Source of the DNA: Phycisphaerales bacterium
GTDB lineage: Bacteria > Planctomycetota > Phycisphaerae > Phycisphaerales > JAGLTS01
DNA length: 64,000 nucleotides
Assembly (NCBI GenBank): GCA_023135165.1
Contig: JAGLTS010000028.1
Location: 64,001-128,000, forward strand
Direction of reading: 5' to 3'
The position numbers and the translations under genes were made by a program. Shown in pieces: positions 3,762 through 56,603 of the stretch (its first letter is position 1; every line of letters begins with the position of its first letter). The notes under the pieces are model-generated. The model was given only the letters and a program-made list of their open reading frames with translations, was not told where the DNA came from and searched no databases.

Positions 3762-5033
3762 TCACGCGTCCTGGGGCGGGGCTTCGGTCAACTCGTGCAT
3801 CATCACGATCGACGTGGGAATGACCGGGAACTGCATCGCCACGCGATACACGTCGAACCGCTTGCCATCCCATCCGAGCCTGTCCAGCGTGTGGCGGATC
3901 ATCTCCGAATGGCGGGGGACGTGCGGCGTGTGGACGACGGATGGACCCTTTCCGAGGTACTCGACGGATTCCCAGACCGTCATTTGATCGCGCTCTCGAC
4001 CCTCGATCGGGGGCACCGGCGTTCCACCGGCTAGCTCGCTGAAGACAGCCAACTCCGGTTCGATGAGTCCGAACAGGTCCTCGTGCACACACAGATCGAA
4101 GATGAGCTGTTCACAAGGCGTGTGCATTCGGACGACGAGCGCCGCGCACTGATTGTGTTCACTGCGGTGGTAGGATGCCGCGCCGCGTGTGACCTCACCG
4201 GTGATGCAGGTCACAGCGCCGATGTTGCCGACTTCGCCTTCGACGAGTTCATCTTCGAGGAATCCGTGCGGACCGACGATGCGTCGGAACTGCGGCAGCG
4301 GATTGGAGCAGAACTCGCGCAGGAGCGGCGCGCCCATCATGCCGTCCGGGTCATCCTCGACCGGGTCAAGCGGTTGGCGGGCAGCGGGTGCGAGCAGCGT
4401 GCCTTCATCGTCAGCGATCCTCGCCCGGGCGATGACCCATGGCACGTCGGGTCGGATGCGCCGCAGGCCGACGAAACCGCGGAGCGTCGCGATGTCCAGA
4501 GTGCCCTTGTCCGCTGCGGGATGCAGCAGATCGACCTTCACCTGTGTCTTGGCCTGAACGCCCCAGATGTAGCTTCCCGCGGAGAAGGCAGCTTTGCGCT
4601 GCGCCAACGCCGCCGGCGCTCGGCCGGCCCCGGCGTACCCGAGCAGCATCATCTCCATCGTCGCTCGATCACCCGCGTGAACGTCGACAAGCCGGTCATA
4701 CTCCTTCACCGCCGCCACGACCTTATCGGTGAGTGAGTCGGGCACTCCCTGCTTCGACGCCGTCGCGAGGAAGCGCTTGATCGCCGCGGACCCCGGGATG
4801 TGCTGGGCGATCATGAAGAGGTCGGCTGCGTGTGCGACCTTGATGATCTTCCACGCGAGCTTCATGTCGAGCTTGATCGCCTTGACAAGCTCGTGCGGGC
4901 GCGTGATATGTCCTGGGAGGGCGTCAATGACCTCCGCAAACGCGCCTCGCACGCCCTGAAGCACGTGCTTGGCGTGCTTCTCAAAAGAAATCCCGTCATC
5001 TCGTTCCGGCTGCATGTTCATTTCCCCGGCCAT
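3762..5033 (-). CDS. Conserved protein of unknown function
   Basis: This protein is about 423 residues long and I do not recognise its family. The N-terminal half is helical and Lys/Ala-rich (ITRPHELVKAIKLDMKLAWK, residues about 40-60). The C-terminal part has mixed alpha/beta character with conserved-looking segments HTPCEQLIFDLCVHEDLFG and HTPHVPRHSEMIRHTLDRLG. There is no signal peptide and no membrane segment. The longest frame begins with TTG, so I favour the ATG at 5033; an ATG at 5015 preceded by GGGGA is an equally good start. Isolated His and Cys residues could bind a cofactor, but no motif supports a named function. Confidence 0.6.
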   Translation of the reverse strand: MAGEMNMQPERDDGISFEKHAKHVLQGVRGAFAEVIDALPGHITRPHELVKAIKLDMKLAWKIIKVAHAADLFMIAQHIPGSAAIKRFLATASKQGVPDSLTDKVVAAVKEYDRLVDVHAGDRATMEMMLLGYAGAGRAPAALAQRKAAFSAGSYIWGVQAKTQVKVDLLHPAADKGTLDIATLRGFVGLRRIRPDVPWVIARARIADDEGTLLAPAARQPLDPVEDDPDGMMGAPLLREFCSNPLPQFRRIVGPHGFLEDELVEGEVGNIGAVTCITGEVTRGAASYHRSEHNQCAALVVRMHTPCEQLIFDLCVHEDLFGLIEPELAVFSELAGGTPVPPIEGRERDQMTVWESVEYLGKGPSVVHTPHVPRHSEMIRHTLDRLGWDGKRFDVYRVAMQFPVIPTSIVMMHELTEAPPQDA

Positions 5034-39094: not shown

Positions 39095-39652
39095 ATGGCC
39101 AAGCGTCCTCCCACGATGAGGCTGTTTGTCGCGATCTATCCGCCGATCGAGATCGCCTGCGCAGCGCTCTCCACGCTCGCGAACCTCGACTTGCCGGACC
39201 ATCGCGCAACGCCTGATCAGCAGATCCACATGACGGTCCAGTTCATCGGCGATACGCCCGTTACGCATCTCGACGCGGTGATCGAGACCACCGAGCGAGC
39301 CGCAGCGGGACTCAACCCGTTCGACCTCACACCCATCCGCTTCATCACACTGCCCAAGCGCCGTCCTGCACGGCTGGTCGCACTGGAAACCGATGCGCCG
39401 CCGCCGCTCGTCGAGCTGCACACCCGTCTCGCCGGTCGCCTCGCGCACCGTCCCAGGCCTCGCCCGTCCGATCGCTTCCTCCCCCACATGACGCTGTGCA
39501 GGTTCAGGCAACCGGGAGCCGTCCCAGGCCTCACAGTGGATCACCCGGTCGACCTCCCGTCCTTCCACGTGCGGTTCATCTCGCTTGTGCGGAGCACACT
39601 CCAGCCGACCGGGGCTGTCCATAACGTCATGGCACGAGCCGAGTTGGGCTGA
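39095..39652 (+). CDS. thpR: RNA 2',3'-cyclic phosphodiesterase (LigT/ThpR family)
   Basis: This is a 185-residue 2H phosphoesterase. The two catalytic HxT motifs are QIHMTVQFIGD (near residue 48) and FLPHMTLCRF (near residue 130). The N-terminus MRLFVAIYPPIEI is the usual ThpR opening. Family members hydrolyse 2',3'-cyclic phosphates on RNA ends. The ATG at 39095 was chosen because the preceding in-frame sequence overlaps the glycosyltransferase gene. A full R2 repeat starts right after the stop codon. Confidence 0.92.
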   Translation: MAKRPPTMRLFVAIYPPIEIACAALSTLANLDLPDHRATPDQQIHMTVQFIGDTPVTHLDAVIETTERAAAGLNPFDLTPIRFITLPKRRPARLVALETDAPPPLVELHTRLAGRLAHRPRPRPSDRFLPHMTLCRFRQPGAVPGLTVDHPVDLPSFHVRFISLVRSTLQPTGAVHNVMARAELG

Positions 39653-39725
39653 ACCCCCACGACCTTGAGTCCGCCGTGGCGGACGAAATCCGCCTCTGGC
39701 GGACCAACACCTCCCAGCCGCAACA
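39653..39725 (+). repeat. R2 repeat, full copy after thpR
   Basis: The copy reads ACCCCCACGACCTTGAG, TCCGCCGTGGCGGACG, AAATCCGCCTCTGGCGGACC. Two palindromes are visible: GTCCGCC/GGCGGAC and TCCGCC/GGCGGA. It starts at the base after the stop codon of thpR. The same double palindrome occurs in reverse at 44657-44762. Confidence 0.85.
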
Positions 39726-39768
39726 CTCCGTTTTATCGGACGATGAGGAGAACTTGGCGCTTTCTGTC

Positions 39769-39796
39769 GTGACAAACGTCATCTTGCCGTTATAAT
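39769..39796 (+). promoter_or_regulatory. Strong sigma-70-like promoter
   Basis: GTGACA (39769-39774, five of six matches to TTGACA), a 16-base spacer and TATAAT (39791-39796, a perfect match). Transcription should start near 39803, 236 bases before the next coding start. It is the clearest housekeeping promoter in the window. Confidence 0.8.
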
Positions 39797-39802
39797 AGAG
39801 AT

Positions 39803-40008
39803 GGAACCGCAGGCCCCTTGAGCGCACGTGTTGCGCAGCGGCCTCGGTCGGCGACGGAAACGTCGTGACATTACTGAGCGTTGTCACTCGAGCCCATGTT
39901 GGGAAGAGGGAGGCTCGAGTTCGGTGAGTGGGAAGCATCTGTAGGGAAGCAAATCACCCACCGACAACTGATCTCAGGACTGGTCTTCGGGCCAGTCCTG
40001 TGTTTTTT
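39803..40008 (+). ncRNA. Candidate structured small RNA of six hairpins (or leader RNA)
   Basis: Between a consensus promoter and a strong terminator lies a roughly 206-base unit that folds by inspection into consecutive stems. P1 pairs ACCG-c-AGGCC (39806-39815) with GGCCTCGGT (39840-39848), with an inner GCGCA/TGCGC helix. P2 is CGACG-GAAA-CGTCG (39852-39865). P3 is TGACA/TGTCA (39866-39886). P4 is CTCGAGCC/GGCTCGAG (39887-39919). P5 is TCGGTGAGTG/CACCCACCGA (39921-39964, one mismatch). P6 is the terminator. Loops of P4 and P5 hold four GGA motifs (39902, 39909, 39931, 39945). This differs from 6S, SRP and tmRNA. A titrating RNA for CsrA or a leader for the acetyltransferase gene are the main possibilities. 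Confidence 0.6.
39976..40008 (+). terminator. Rho-independent terminator with UUCG loop
   Basis: AGGACTGGTC (39976-39985) pairs with GGCCAGTCCT (39990-39999) around a TTCG tetraloop, followed by GTGTTTTTTG. This is a textbook terminator, 30 bases before the GTG of the next gene. Confidence 0.93.
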
Positions 40009-40038
40009 GCACATGTGACACAGCCGACGGAGACACAC

Positions 40039-40512
40039 GTGCCCGTTACGATCCAAGGCCCGCGCCTGAACCAGGCATCCACATGCGAACCGATCCTCCG
40101 CGCGCTGCCTGACTGGTTCGGCATCGAGGATGCGATCGTTCACTACGTGCGGGAGATCGAATCGCTCCCCACCTTCATCGCCGAAGCGGACAATCAACCC
40201 GTCGGCTTCCTCTCCGTCAAACGTGCGTTCGACTGCGCAGCCGACATCTACGTCATGGGCATCCTTCGTGAACATCACCGCAACGGTGTGGGGCGGGCGC
40301 TCCTGGAACACGCCGAGGCATGGCTCGCAGCAGAGGGTGTGCGGTTCCTTCAGGTCAAGACGCTCTCGCCATCGCATCCGAGCAAGGACTACGCCCGCAC
40401 CCGCGCGTTCTACCAGGCCGTCGGCTTCCATCCGCTCGAGGAGTTCCCGACACTGTGGGGCGAAGCCAGCCCCTGTCTCCAGATGATCAAGGCCCTGCCG
40501 CCGTCGAGCTAA
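40039..40512 (+). CDS. GNAT-family N-acetyltransferase
   Basis: This 157-residue protein follows the GNAT fold. FIAEADNQPVGFLSVKRAF is the beta-2/beta-3 region, IYVMGILREHHRNGVGRALLEHAEAWL is motif A with the acetyl-CoA pyrophosphate loop (RxxGxG/A), and ARTRAFYQAVGFHPLEEF is motif B. The GTG at 40039 was selected because GGAG lies six bases upstream and the terminator ends at 40008; a GTG at 40015 would add eight residues. The substrate is unknown. It precedes the radical SAM gene by 22 bases. Confidence 0.85.
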   Translation: MPVTIQGPRLNQASTCEPILRALPDWFGIEDAIVHYVREIESLPTFIAEADNQPVGFLSVKRAFDCAADIYVMGILREHHRNGVGRALLEHAEAWLAAEGVRFLQVKTLSPSHPSKDYARTRAFYQAVGFHPLEEFPTLWGEASPCLQMIKALPPSS

Positions 40513-40534: not shown

Positions 40535-41278
40535 ATGCCCAAGAACCCCGCCGTCGCCGTCGTCTTCCTTCAGCCGCAGTGCAACATGACCTGCACGTTC
40601 TGCGTCACCGAAGACGACTTCTCCTCCATGACGTTCGACCAGGCGATCAACCTCCTCGATCACCTCAAGAGCCTCGGCATCACAACCGTCGTCATCGGCG
40701 GCGGCGAGCCGTTCGACTGGCCCGGCGACGTGGTCAAGCTCTCACGCATCGCCAAGAAGCTCGGCTTCACCGTTCAGGTCGGCACCAACGCCGTCGCGCT
40801 CCCCGAAGGCTTCGAGCACATCGACTCGATCGACCGTTACGTCATCCCCATCGAATCCGCCCAGCCCGAACCGCACGACGCGATGCGCCTCTACAAGAAC
40901 AGCCACCACAGCGTCATTCTCAATGTACTTGACAAGCTACGCACCGCGCGCAAGTCCGTGACGCTCTCCACGGTCATCACGACCGTCAACCGGGCCGGCA
41001 TCGTCGATCTGGCGCACTACCTTCAGCGGTACAACGTCGGCCACATCCACGCATGGCATCTCTACCGCCTCATCACGCAAGGCAGAGGCGGCGCACACAC
41101 CGGCCGCACCCTCCAGATCCCCGAGGATGAGTACCACCGGATCTGTGATGCCGTCCGCGCCATGGACCTCGGTTTCCCCGTCTACAAGCGAATCGACATG
41201 TACAACTCGCGGACGGTCGAGTTCTTCTGGTATGAAGGCGACCGCATCATCACCGGCAGCGACGCCCGCAACGCCTGA
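40535..41278 (+). CDS. Radical SAM protein
   Basis: This 247-residue protein has the cluster motif CNMTCTFC (CxxxCxxC) at residues 14-21 and the SAM-binding GGGEP segment in TTVVIGGGEPFDW. Later strand motifs include VQVGTNAVALP and VTLSTVITTVNRAGI. There is no C-terminal Cys-rich SPASM domain, so it is a short single-domain radical SAM enzyme of the MoaA/PqqE-like fold. The reaction is unknown. It shares a likely transcript with the GNAT gene, which suggests a modification followed by acetylation of a product; that is inference from proximity only. Confidence 0.87.
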   Translation: MPKNPAVAVVFLQPQCNMTCTFCVTEDDFSSMTFDQAINLLDHLKSLGITTVVIGGGEPFDWPGDVVKLSRIAKKLGFTVQVGTNAVALPEGFEHIDSIDRYVIPIESAQPEPHDAMRLYKNSHHSVILNVLDKLRTARKSVTLSTVITTVNRAGIVDLAHYLQRYNVGHIHAWHLYRLITQGRGGAHTGRTLQIPEDEYHRICDAVRAMDLGFPVYKRIDMYNSRTVEFFWYEGDRIITGSDARNA

Positions 41279-41405
41279 CCCCCCAAAGCCGCAGGAACTC
41301 GTTCCTGCGGGAACGTACCACCTGCACGTCGCACATGCTCCGGATTCACAGAATCCGGCTCCGCCCGCCGCCGCAACGTACGTTATCCGTTCACCTGTGC
41401 AATCA
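41279..41405 (+). repeat. R1 composite repeat, left part, copy E
   Basis: The copy begins at the base after the radical SAM stop codon. CCCCAAAGCCGCAGGAAC, TCGTTCCTGCGGG is followed by CACCTGCACGTCGCACATG, the perfect hairpin CCGGATTCACAGAATCCGG (41341-41359), CCGCCGCCGCAACGTACG and TTATCCGTTCACC. It matches the full copy at 18721 module by module but lacks the final TAGCCGCGACG module. Confidence 0.85.
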
Positions 41406-41634
41406 CCTGCACAAAGACAAGCAGCACGCGCCCGACTTCGCAACGGAAGGAGCCGGACTCTGTGAGTCCGGTGCACCCCCGAGCAGCAACACGCGCTCGC
41501 TTCCCTCCCCCCTTCTGCCTTTGTGCCTATGCCCCTCTGCCCCTTCCTCGGTTCACTTACTGTACTTATCCGCTTCTTCCGCCCTCGGACCGCAGTAGGT
41601 CGCGGACGACGAATCCTCGCCGGTGTTCCTTGAG
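41279..41634. other. Spacer between convergent radical SAM and FRG genes
   Basis: The first third is R1 copy E. After it, GGAGCCGGACTCTGTGAG and TCCGGTGCACC (near 41450-41476) form another short inverted repeat, followed by a C/T-rich stretch with no visible gene. Confidence 0.6.
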
Positions 41635-42387
41635 CTACTGCTCATTCCTGCGAGCTACTGATTGGCGAGTTTCCCAATCCACGAATTCAGAGAGCCCTTC
41701 AAGGTCAGGGAAACAGGTTCTTCTGTTGATGCCGACGTCGTTAAGCTGCCGTTGGAGCATGGCTTTCCACTTCGCGAGGACTCTAATCACCACGAGGTTG
41801 ACATCTACTTCCGATAGCTCTTTGACCGCGTCCTCCTTGATGCCTTCTGCCTGAAGTGGCACTTCGGGACGTGGGTGGTATGTGAACAATCCGCCCTGAG
41901 CAAGGATGCGGCGATCGAAGGGTCTCGGAGTGTATCTCGCAACCACCCCAAGTTCCTCAGGTGTGCAATTGTCCGGCGCGACGCAGGTTTGCGTGTAGTA
42001 ACAATAAACCGCCCCATCAACATCGTCCTGACCCTCTACGGCGAAAAACAGCGCTACCAGCGGATTGGACGACCAGTCGAGTAGTCTGGTTGCCAAGCCA
42101 TAGTGTTGAGCGAAGGCTAGGCATTCGAAATCATTACTCGGGAGGCGTTCACAGAACGCGACAGCCTGCTCCCGCCATGCTCGGAAGCGCCCCAAATCGG
42201 CGGATGCCTGCCCCTTCTCAATCCAATAGTCCGTTGCTTTCAGGTAGAACTCGGGCCGACCGGCCCTGGGGCGCAGAGGCCACGAGATATCGGTTTGCCC
42301 GCGATGCATCCAAGCGATGGCCGGATACCGCTGAACGAGTTGAACAAACTGCGCGAGAGTAACAAACGTGTGCTCAGGAGAATCCAT
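41635..42387 (-). CDS. FRG-domain protein
   Basis: This 250-residue protein matches the FRG domain. AIAWMHRGQTDISWPLRPRAGR carries the (F/W)RGq motif, and ECLAFAQHYGLATRLLDWSSNPLVALFFAV is the second diagnostic block. The C-terminus (about 130-250) has no other domain. FRG proteins are of unknown biochemistry but are often found near restriction, toxin and phage-defence genes. Here the neighbour upstream on the same strand is the methyltransferase-nuclease gene (115 bases away), fitting an accessory role in that pair. Confidence 0.85.
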   Translation of the reverse strand: MDSPEHTFVTLAQFVQLVQRYPAIAWMHRGQTDISWPLRPRAGRPEFYLKATDYWIEKGQASADLGRFRAWREQAVAFCERLPSNDFECLAFAQHYGLATRLLDWSSNPLVALFFAVEGQDDVDGAVYCYYTQTCVAPDNCTPEELGVVARYTPRPFDRRILAQGGLFTYHPRPEVPLQAEGIKEDAVKELSEVDVNLVVIRVLAKWKAMLQRQLNDVGINRRTCFPDLEGLSEFVDWETRQSVARRNEQ

Positions 42388-42501
42388 CGAATCACCATTA
42401 CTACTGTAGCAATGTACGCGGAGTAAACAAAGGGGACAACTAGACTAAGTGGACTTCGCTCGCTGCCAGCCGGGGAAGGCATGCCTTTATTGCGTCTCGT
42501 G

Positions 42502-44076
42502 TCACATCTTCTGCACATGCTCCTCGTCGAGAATCTCCTGAACCGTCAGGAGTTTGATGATTCTACCTGTTCTCTTGTGGAAGGCGGCGCATTCCTGCTC
42601 GGCGTTCTTTGTGTAACTGAACGCCACAAAGAAGCCCCGCTGCCGGCCCCCGGAGCCCTCTCGCTCCATCACCGCCTCGAACTTGTCGATCTCGGGGCGG
42701 CCGACCTTCTCTGACTGCTTCACCTGTACGGGGAACCAGTCTTCGGCGAACATGCTGTCGGTGTCGGCGGGCTTCGAGCCGACGGGGAAGATCCGGCCGT
42801 CGATGCCCATGTCGCCGACCTGCACCTTGTTGGGAATGCCACCGAGCGCAATGACCGCCCAGTTCTCGAACTCGAAGTGTGGGATGGCCTTGAGCTTCTC
42901 GATTGTCCATGGCAGTCCACGGACAATGAACCCGCGCCCGACTTGCCACAGCATGTCATCCTCGCGCATCTTGCACACATCACGGAGGCGCTTGGCCATG
43001 ACGCGGCACGCCGTGGGCGAAACATCTACGCCGATCCATTGACGACCAAGGTTCTGCGCGGCGACCAGCGCCGTTCCACAGCCGCAAAAGGCATCGAGAA
43101 CGATGTCGTTGGGGTTTGAGGAAGCTTTGATGATGCGGTCCAGAAGGGCGAGAGGCTTCTGCGTAGGGTAACCGAGGCGCTCGGACGCTTGCGCCTGAAC
43201 AGGCAGGATGTCTTCCCATACTGTGTCAACCGGCATGCCCTTCATCTCATCGAGATACCGCTTCTGGGAGGCGAGGCCGGTAGATGAGTAGTATATGATG
43301 CCTTTGTCGTGTGCTTCTTGCATCCGATCCTTCGTCCACCGCCACACACGCTTGTGACCGTTCCATTCGTAGGTGAGGTTCGGGCGGTTTGGGTTAGGGT
43401 TCGTGAGATCGCTAAGCCGGTACCGACGCCCTGTTTCATCCTCAATGTAGCGATAGAACTGCTTGATGTAGTCAGGATCGTATTCCTTGAACGGTCGGTT
43501 CCATGTGAAAGTATCAGGCCCTGTGTAGTAGAAGATATTGTCGTGGTTGTTCGGAAAACCCTTGAATGCGAGACCCTTCGCATTTGTGCGGCGCCAAACG
43601 ATATCACTGCGAAAGTTATTCTCTCCGAGAATCTGATCGAGCATCACCTTGACGTAGTGGCTGGCGTGCCAGTCGCAGTGGTAGTAGAAGCTGCCGGTCC
43701 TCTTGAGCACGCGGGCCAGTTCCACGCAGCGCGGGCGCATGTAGTCGATGTACGCCGCCGTGCTGGCGTGGCGATCGTCGAAGGCGCGTTTCTCCTTGGT
43801 CTCGCCCCAGAAGACTTCGTAGTTGCGGTTGCTGTTGAAAGGCGGGTCGATGTAGATCAGATCAACGCAGCCATCCGGGAGCGTACGCAACTGCTCCAGA
43901 CAATCGCCGCAGTGGACGATGCGCGTGTCAATCAGGGCCGAGGGCTTGCCCTTGGCAACTGCCGGGGCGTGTTCTTCGGTCTTCTTGCTCCCCCGCTTGG
44001 CAGGTGCTCGCTTCTTGGTCGGAGTCTTGGCGCTCCGTTTCACCGTTTTCTTCGCGGTAGTCCGCTTCTTGGCCAT
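42502..44076 (-). CDS. Adenine-type DNA methyltransferase fused to an Mrr-like nuclease domain
   Basis: This 524-residue protein has three regions. Residues 1-50 are Lys/Ala/Thr/Pro-rich (AKKRTTAKKTVKRSAKTPTK), resembling a histone H1-like DNA-binding tail. Residues about 55-360 are a beta-class methyltransferase: motif IV DLIYIDPPFNSN precedes motif I VLDAFCGCGTALVAAQNLG, with a target-recognition stretch between. Residues about 400-524 look like a PD-(D/E)xK restriction domain: GDMGIDGRIF gives the acidic residue, PVQVKQSEKVGRPEIDKF the QxK, and RQRGFFVAFSYT a core strand. Together they imply a single-chain restriction-modification enzyme. The ATG at 44076 is chosen; upstream residues are not family-like. 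Confidence 0.87.
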   Translation of the reverse strand: MAKKRTTAKKTVKRSAKTPTKKRAPAKRGSKKTEEHAPAVAKGKPSALIDTRIVHCGDCLEQLRTLPDGCVDLIYIDPPFNSNRNYEVFWGETKEKRAFDDRHASTAAYIDYMRPRCVELARVLKRTGSFYYHCDWHASHYVKVMLDQILGENNFRSDIVWRRTNAKGLAFKGFPNNHDNIFYYTGPDTFTWNRPFKEYDPDYIKQFYRYIEDETGRRYRLSDLTNPNPNRPNLTYEWNGHKRVWRWTKDRMQEAHDKGIIYYSSTGLASQKRYLDEMKGMPVDTVWEDILPVQAQASERLGYPTQKPLALLDRIIKASSNPNDIVLDAFCGCGTALVAAQNLGRQWIGVDVSPTACRVMAKRLRDVCKMREDDMLWQVGRGFIVRGLPWTIEKLKAIPHFEFENWAVIALGGIPNKVQVGDMGIDGRIFPVGSKPADTDSMFAEDWFPVQVKQSEKVGRPEIDKFEAVMEREGSGGRQRGFFVAFSYTKNAEQECAAFHKRTGRIIKLLTVQEILDEEHVQKM

Positions 44077-44233
44077 GAGCGGAGAGTACCGGGCAAGTCC
44101 CGAACAGGCAATCCCGGTGCGTCTCACGACTGTCAACAAAACGACTGATTTGCTGCACGGCTGACAGCCAGCCGGCTCGTGCCGAGCCGGGCTCGCGCGA
44201 TGACCAGGCGACGCGCCGCGCGGGTGTTCGGCG

Positions 44234-44656: not shown

Positions 44657-44762
44657 GATGTGGTCGGGGTCGTGGGAGTCGTGGGTCCGCCGGTGGCGGA
44701 TTTCGTCCGCCACGGCGGACTCAAGGTTGTGGGGGAGTCGTGGGGGGTCGTGGGGGTCGGCT
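44657..44762 (-). repeat. R2 repeat, longest copy, after xer
   Basis: Read on the minus strand it starts at the stop codon of the recombinase gene: CGACCCCCACGACCCCCC, ACGACTCCCCCACAACC, TTGAGTCCGCCGTGGCGG, ACGAAATCCGCCACCGGCGG, ACCCACGACTCCCACG. It has the same double palindrome as the copy after thpR with an expanded leader. Confidence 0.85.
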
Positions 44763-48904: not shown

Positions 48905-49602
48905 CTGCGGGGCGATTGATCAAGAGCGTGTTGTGCGCAGCGGCGTTTTTCACAGCGGGCGAAGCCGCTGGGCAGAGCGTGTACCTGCGCACACCCGATG
49001 CGGAGGCTGCGGCGGAGGAGGCTGAGCATCCCGGCGAGGCGCGTGCCGAGGCGAGTACGATCGCGACGCCGCCGCCTGAGCCGAGGGTCTTTGGCAAACA
49101 CGACATCGTGCACATCGTCGTTTCCGAAGCGACGAAGGTGAAGAGCGAGCACGATCTGAGCACTGAGAAGGACGGTGAGATGGGGGCCGAAGTCACTGCC
49201 TTTCCCGAGCTTCTTGAGTTCCTCGAACTGCGATTCAAAGCAGGTGATGAAACCGCGGGCGAACTGCCGAAGCTCGGCGTCAAGGCGGACCGCGCGTACG
49301 ACGCGGCGGGCGAGTACGAGCGGAAGGACACCTTCACCGCACGGATTGCGGCGACCATCCTTGAAGTCAAGCCGAACGGCACGCTGGTTCTGGAGGCGAG
49401 GCAGCGCATTGAGACAGATGGCGAGGTGCAGTTGATGGTGTTGTCGGGTTCGTGCCGTGAGGAGGATGTCACGGCTGCGAGCACGGTGTTCAGCTACCAG
49501 CTCGCTGACTTGCGCATCGTGCGTGAGACGGAGGGTGAATTGAAGCAGAACGCGCAGAAGGGGTTCTTCACGAAGGTTCTGGAAACGATCTTCTCGTTCT
49601 AG
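48901..49602 (+). CDS. flgH: Flagellar L-ring protein FlgH
   Basis: This 233-residue outer-membrane ring protein contains KHDIVHIVVSEATKVKSEHD, FTARIAATILEVKPNGTLVLEARQRI, LMVLSGSCREEDVTA and LADLRIVRETEGEL, all in FlgH order. FlgH is normally a lipoprotein. Here the N-terminal segment (LIKSVLCAAAFFTAGEAAGQ) has no LxGC-type lipobox, so anchoring may differ. It starts with GTG at 48901. Confidence 0.9.
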   Translation: MTAGRLIKSVLCAAAFFTAGEAAGQSVYLRTPDAEAAAEEAEHPGEARAEASTIATPPPEPRVFGKHDIVHIVVSEATKVKSEHDLSTEKDGEMGAEVTAFPELLEFLELRFKAGDETAGELPKLGVKADRAYDAAGEYERKDTFTARIAATILEVKPNGTLVLEARQRIETDGEVQLMVLSGSCREEDVTAASTVFSYQLADLRIVRETEGELKQNAQKGFFTKVLETIFSF

Positions 49603-55675: not shown

Positions 55676-56122
55676 ATGAACGTTGAAACCACACGGTTTG
55701 GAACCGTGGAGATCGAGGACGATCGTGTGATCACGTTCCCCAATGGGCTGCTCGGGTTTGCCGCCTACAGGCGGTTTTGCCTCCTGAGACCCAACGACGA
55801 CGGCGTGTTCTTCTGGCTTCAGTCGCTGGAGGAGCCGTCGCTCGCGTTTGTGGTGACGGACCCGAGTGTGTTCGTGCCCGACTACGTCGTCCCAATCAGG
55901 CCTGAGCAGATGCAGTCCCTTGGACTGAGGAGCATCGACGACGCTCAGGTCCTGGTGATCGTGAACAAGCAAGACGACCACCTGACGGGCAACCTTCAGG
56001 GGCCGGTCATCGTGAGCACGATCAGCAGGCTCGGTGAGCAACTCGTGCTTGCGGAGAAGCGGTGGACGACACGGCACACGCTTGTGGAGCTGTCACAGGT
56101 TCCGCAGGCAGCGTCGGCGTAG
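55676..56122 (+). CDS. fliW: Flagellar assembly factor FliW
   Basis: FliW binds flagellin and CsrA and relieves CsrA repression of flagellin translation. The 148-residue protein has TTRFGTVEIEDDRVITFPNGLLGF, LLRPNDDGVFFWLQSLEEPSLAFVV and VPIRPEQMQSLGLRSIDDA, all in family order. The ATG at 55676 fits the FliW N-terminus. It lies directly upstream of csrA and the flagellins, the arrangement described in Bacillus. Confidence 0.94.
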   Translation: MNVETTRFGTVEIEDDRVITFPNGLLGFAAYRRFCLLRPNDDGVFFWLQSLEEPSLAFVVTDPSVFVPDYVVPIRPEQMQSLGLRSIDDAQVLVIVNKQDDHLTGNLQGPVIVSTISRLGEQLVLAEKRWTTRHTLVELSQVPQAASA

Positions 56123-56303: not shown

Positions 56304-56603
56304 ATGTTGGTGCTCTCACGTCAGCGTGATGAAACGATCATGATCGGCGACGAAATCGAAGTGACCGTCGTCGACATCAGAGGTGACAAGGTCAGGCTGG
56401 GCATCAATGCGCCGACGCGCATCGCCGTACATCGCAAAGAGATCTACGAGGCGATCAAGCGCGAGAACGAACAGGCGGCGCACCTGCTCGACCCGGAGGA
56501 CATTGATGTGCTCAGCCGGGCCATCGCACCGGGGCCTCATCGCAACCGCGTCGGGCCCAAGCTCAAAGCGACCAAGCCCGCCAAGGGCAGCAAGTCGGCA
56601 TGA
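56304..56603 (+). CDS. csrA: Carbon storage regulator CsrA
   Basis: This RNA-binding translational regulator recognises GGA motifs in hairpin loops. The 99-residue protein has MLVLSRQRDETIMIGDEIEV, TVVDIRGDKVRLGINAPTR and IAVHRKEIYEAIKREN, the complete CsrA fold, with the RNA-contacting Arg residues of strands beta-1 and beta-5. About 30 extra residues at the C-terminus form a basic tail (VGPKLKATKPAKGSKSA) not found in the 61-75-residue model proteins. AAGGAG lies seven bases before the ATG. Confidence 0.96.
   Translation: MLVLSRQRDETIMIGDEIEVTVVDIRGDKVRLGINAPTRIAVHRKEIYEAIKRENEQAAHLLDPEDIDVLSRAIAPGPHRNRVGPKLKATKPAKGSKSA

Follow-up and report, generated by a model that had tools for sequence, protein, structure and literature searches.

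Results

The window analysed here, the whole stretch of 64,000 nucleotides (64 kb) from a contig of a Phycisphaerales bacterium, contains a unit made of a promoter, a predicted RNA and a terminator in a 386-base gap between two genes. Upstream, a gene encoding an RNA 2',3'-cyclic phosphodiesterase (LigT-type) ends at 39652 on the plus strand. Downstream lies a gene encoding a GNAT-family acetyltransferase (40039..40512, plus strand; Pfam PF13508/PF00583), with a GTG start codon preceded by GGAG; a longer frame from 39928 was rejected since ortholog alignments begin at the 40039 start. After a gap of 22 bases follows a gene for a radical SAM protein (40535..41278, plus strand; Pfam PF04055), which probably forms one operon with the GNAT gene. 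The LigT-type gene, the unit and the GNAT and radical SAM genes share the same orientation. The nearest GNAT sequences were mostly from Chloroflexota genomes, and the LigT-GNAT gene order was not conserved. Just 5' of the promoter, at 39655-39716, lies a palindromic, REP-like dispersed repeat of ca. 62 bases that was found at 29 places in the genome at E<=0.02, itself included, one of them at 44673-44734 of the window on the opposite strand. The region 40535-44139 may constitute a small defence-related cluster, in which the radical SAM gene, whose product is weakly similar to prokaryotic viperin models, lies together with genes for a DNA methyltransferase and for a protein with an FRG domain (PADLOC PDC-S15, E 8e-57).

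The promoter is of the sigma-70 type (39769..39796, plus strand) and consists of GTGACA, a 16-base spacer and TATAAT, matching 11 of the 12 consensus positions. It was the sole match of at least 11/12 on both strands of the 64-kb window, whereas 0.07 such sites would be expected from dinucleotide shuffles, so the near-consensus promoter claimed by an earlier sequence-only reading proved correct. No promoter-like site above 7/12 was observed within 39797-40038, so that no separate promoter is evident for the GNAT gene, which fits a leader. The strong UUCG-capped terminator of the same reading was also confirmed: its stem-loop (39975..40000, plus strand) has 11 pairs and a UUCG loop, with an energy of -20.5 kcal/mol, and is followed by a T run to 40008 (terminator sequence CAGGACTGGTCTTCGGGCCAGTCCTG then TGTTTTTT). 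It was the strongest terminator in a 4-kb scan, lies on the same strand as the promoter and at a fitting distance from it, and its hairpin formed in all folds of the completed RNA. The GNAT start codon at 40039 is 38 bases past the end of the terminator stem at 40000.

Placing the start of the RNA 6–8 bases past the -10 box and its end at the T run, the promoter and terminator would delimit an RNA of about 206 nt (39803..40008, plus strand). No coding frame in it is plausible: just one, of 6 codons, follows a Shine-Dalgarno-like site. Including the terminator, its fold had a z of about -4 compared to shuffles; omitting the terminator, z was -2.3, a moderately unusual value reached by about 2% of the 173-nt stretches of the window. 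The lowest-energy structure predicted for the terminated RNA has, ahead of the terminator and on the same strand, the hairpins P1 (39806..39848, present also in the centroid fold), P2 (39851..39866), closed by a GNRA (GAAA) tetraloop, P3 (39867..39885), P4 (39886..39920), with GGGAAG and GGGAGG in its loop, and P5 (39921..39964), which carries two copies of GGGAAG and has a weak inner stem (-2.2 kcal/mol). The six consecutive hairpins described earlier were thus recovered in this fold, but not as the only arrangement. An alternative long-range helix of CUGAGCGUUGUC (39874-39885) with GACAACUGAUCUCAG (39963-39977), spanning 39874..39977 on the plus strand and enclosing P4 and P5, competes with P3. 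In the nascent transcript up to 39988 it was predicted to replace P3 at about 96%, falling to about 16% after formation of the terminator. Because of this competition the six-hairpin arrangement is not certain and is best regarded as one of two plausible folds.

The RNA contains, as had been counted, seven GGA motifs (39803, 39856, 39902, 39909, 39931, 39945 and 39977). This number, previously taken as a modest excess, turned out to be ordinary for the length, as 8% of the window stretches had as many and shuffles gave a P of about 0.2. Nor did the placement of the motifs in loops, which had been considered the stronger sign, stand out: a single GGA of the seven was wholly inside a hairpin loop in the best fold, not above shuffles (P 0.30). 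Among the four GGAs attributed to the loops of P4 and P5, the one at 39902 is indeed fully unpaired, but those at 39909 and 39931 are half open and that at 39945 is paired; the GGA of P2 has its first G paired in the stem. Half-open GGAs numbered four, above shuffles (P about 0.01) and found in 1.2% of window stretches, and ANGGA motifs were also four, above shuffles and equalled in 0.4% of window stretches.

A stronger sign than GGA loop placement is the clustering of GGGARG motifs, four of which (39901, 39908, 39930 and 39944) occur within 49 bases (39901..39949, plus strand), distributed over the two hairpins P4 and P5. For a motif picked post hoc, after the cluster was noticed, 0.19 copies were expected in shuffles and none of 5000 shuffles reached four; the few window stretches with four copies were about as many as those expected to include the cluster 39901-39949 itself. 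The threefold occurrence of GGGAAG alone is unremarkable, since some 6-mer occurs three times in 24% of window stretches, and of the four GGGARG motifs just two carry the upstream A of ANGGA.

For comparison, these GGA measures were also computed for CsrB and CsrC from the annotated E. coli genome. Both were above shuffles for the total of GGAs and for the in-loop and half-open counts, but not for ANGGA, indicating that the ANGGA count does not discriminate. GGAs wholly in hairpin loops amounted to 9/22 in CsrB (P<0.005) and 4/14 in CsrC (P 0.02), versus 1/7 in the predicted RNA.

Relatives of the unit and known RNA families were then considered. Rfam searches of the locus, at the gathering threshold and at E 10, gave no relevant match, so that the known family envisaged as an outcome by the sequence-only reading was not encountered. 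In particular, no CsrB, CsrC or Rsm covariance model matched within 39600-40200 at E 10, though the same library strongly matched E. coli CsrB and CsrC, included as positive control. A DNA search against 100 relatives of the order returned short, chance-level matches only. Covariance models of the two folds, each built from a single sequence and thus liable to miss remote homologs, yielded no convincing homolog in overlapping sets of about 200 genomes of the order, 397 of the class and 392 of the phylum; the genomes searched were at order level and wider, none belonging to the genus or family of the source genome. Two matches of model R1 with E below 1e-4 (sets of 201 and 397 genomes) proved on inspection to be just UUCG terminators linked through deletions and were discarded. 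A third R1 match, scoring 21 bits over portions of the model, was judged to be chance, and a weak match of model R2, which represents the alternative fold without the terminator, lay within a long reading frame on its antisense strand. Phages and plasmids yielded no homolog, nor did viral contigs searched with one exact pattern. No model matched any of 87 GNAT loci (80 GTDB records and 7 relatives), and no homolog of the unit was present at the LigT loci of the 21 relatives. Direct reading of the regions upstream of GNAT orthologs in order relatives revealed no such spacer, indicating no tie between the unit and GNAT. Judging from these searches, the locus would be a lineage-restricted, unconserved promoter–RNA–terminator unit with no detectable relatives in the sets searched.

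The identity of the RNA as 6S RNA was considered and rejected. RF00013 was not found in the source genome, which is 92% complete, whereas 17 of 40 genomes from the order-level set gave a match. A 6S model made from order relatives scored its own members at 164–187 bits; in the region of the unit it reached at most 6.1 bits, with no match over the RNA. Elsewhere in the window, at 4217-4380 on the plus strand, this search gave a weak match (13 bits, E 0.07) that overlaps reading frames and is probably due to chance.

The sequence-only reading had also stated that the genome encodes CsrA and FliW, and this was verified. The window carries fliW (55676..56122, plus strand), identified by NCBIfam FliW models with E values to 1.7e-39, below their strict cut-offs, and adjoining it csrA (56304..56603, plus strand), for which PF02599 and TIGR00202 were both over cut-off. 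In other bacteria, FliW is a protein that antagonises CsrA. A second CsrA gene is located on the same contig at about position 49295, some 14.7 kb ahead of where the window begins; the region upstream of it is GGA-rich near the start (AGGATGTGG, ACAGGAGG).

Discussion

The sequence of the locus shows a promoter, a terminator, a predicted fold, a motif cluster and no detectable relatives in the sets searched. The strong promoter and terminator, with a folded RNA predicted between them, make a genuine small-RNA gene, or else a gene leader, probable. Our preferred reading, held tentatively and at somewhat under an even chance, is that of a lineage-restricted sRNA gene whose RNA would act in trans. 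Several features argue for it: a promoter that is the only near-consensus one in 64 kb and of the kind an abundant RNA would be expected to have; a strong terminator formed in every completed fold, and a fold better than those of shuffles; the lack of a plausible coding frame together with the GGGARG cluster; and the missing evolutionary tie to GNAT, along with an antiterminator that is not significant. Against it stand the failure to find a homolog, and hence any covariation or sign of selection, the 38-base distance from terminator to GNAT gene, the lack of an evident GNAT promoter and the modest folding score obtained once the terminator is removed. Under the sRNA gene reading, RNA polymerase would start at the strong promoter, a compact structured RNA would be made, and synthesis would stop at the intrinsic terminator. 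This RNA would most likely be trans-acting, and the GGGARG segments of P4 and P5, rich in purines, would be the surface by which it contacts a partner, either a pyrimidine-rich stretch of an mRNA or a protein that binds RNA. Polymerases that now and then pass the terminator may also supply transcripts of the GNAT and radical SAM genes downstream.

The main rival, which remains close to the stand-alone sRNA, is that the RNA forms the 5' leader of the GNAT-radical SAM operon and attenuates its transcription. The terminator would then stop most transcripts until a signal (a ligand, a protein or a stalled ribosome) shifted the fold and allowed read-through; we regard this reading as possible but the less probable of the two. 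The short distance between the terminator and the GNAT start codon with its GGAG, the lack of other promoter-like sites above background between promoter and GNAT gene, and the prediction of two competing folds are consistent with a leader. In addition, pairing is possible between a 5' segment (39806-39823) and the 5' arm of the terminator (39971-39990), and it was predicted to occur transiently, at about 78%, in a folding series when the polymerase was near 39992. However, the best candidate antiterminator pairing was no stronger than in shuffled sequence (P 0.36), the antiterminated fold was less favourable than the terminated one by about 13 kcal/mol, and the long-range helix shares only 3 bases with the terminator. 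Rfam offered no riboswitch or leader match at the locus, and the GNAT orthologs of relatives, like the 87 GNAT loci, have no such leader. That the whole arrangement arose by chance, as an ordinary spacer of GC-rich DNA flanked by a promoter-like site and a terminator that may just end upstream transcripts, would agree with the lack of conservation in the sets searched, with the moderate folding excess outside the terminator and with the dispersed repeat immediately upstream. This appears unlikely, given how rarely the window should contain a promoter of such quality and that the strongest terminator of the 4-kb scan lies on its strand at a fitting distance.

The sequence-only reading had proposed a special case of a stand-alone sRNA, namely a CsrA-titrating RNA like CsrB or RsmZ, whose GGAs in P4 and P5 would bind CsrA dimers and free target mRNAs. 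The two CsrA genes of the genome, the four ANGGA and four half-open GGAs and the GGGARG motifs shared by two hairpins point in this direction. By contrast, the total of GGAs is ordinary and their number in hairpin loops does not exceed shuffles, as it does in CsrB and CsrC; half of the GGGARG motifs lack the upstream A, and the Rfam models for CsrB, CsrC and Rsm RNAs are unmatched. SELEX and structural work favours a GGA in the six-base loop of a short hairpin (summarised in PMC7652899), and no hairpin of the predicted RNA presents one in this way. The presence of FliW also argues against titration: 340 of 346 CsrA-encoding genomes surveyed had FliW or BarA-UvrY, not both, so that FliW almost excludes BarA-UvrY, which drives sRNA antagonists of CsrA (PMC4682653). 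Planctomycetes were listed among the groups that may use FliW (PMC4682653), and Campylobacter, which has FliW, is without antagonist RNAs (PMC4894983). With evidence that is mixed and mostly negative, the CsrA sponge is a possible but weak idea, and titration seems very unlikely. Slighter still is the probability of an independently arisen CsrA-sequestering RNA, with clustered GGGARG in two hairpins, alongside FliW in a non-gammaproteobacterial genome, a situation in which a protein and an RNA would both antagonise CsrA within a single cell.

The predicted RNA shares traits with several known systems. Like CsrB/CsrC and RsmX/Y/Z (RF00018, RF00084), it would be an sRNA of a few hundred bases delimited by promoter and terminator, with several hairpins and GGAs, in a host having CsrA; unlike them, it has far fewer exposed GGAs, no short ANGGAN hexaloop hairpins and no Rfam match or homologs, and its host has FliW. 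It resembles attenuators and riboswitch leaders in being a structured RNA of leader length with an intrinsic terminator just 5' of a start codon and competing folds, but differs from them in the absence of a significant antiterminator, of an Rfam match and of conservation upstream of the GNAT genes of relatives. With 6S RNA (RF00013) it has in common a similar length, a single copy and a strong promoter, whereas it is predicted to form separate hairpins and 6S RNA forms one long rod.

As it stands, the evidence supports only an unconserved promoter–RNA–terminator unit. To our knowledge, few structured sRNAs or leaders have been described in this group of bacteria (Planctomycetota-type), to which the RNA, if made, would add an orphan structured sRNA or gene leader. 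According to a 2020 review, it has yet to be determined whether FliW and sRNAs jointly act on CsrA within a single species, a question on which the RNA would bear if it bound CsrA (PMC7652899).
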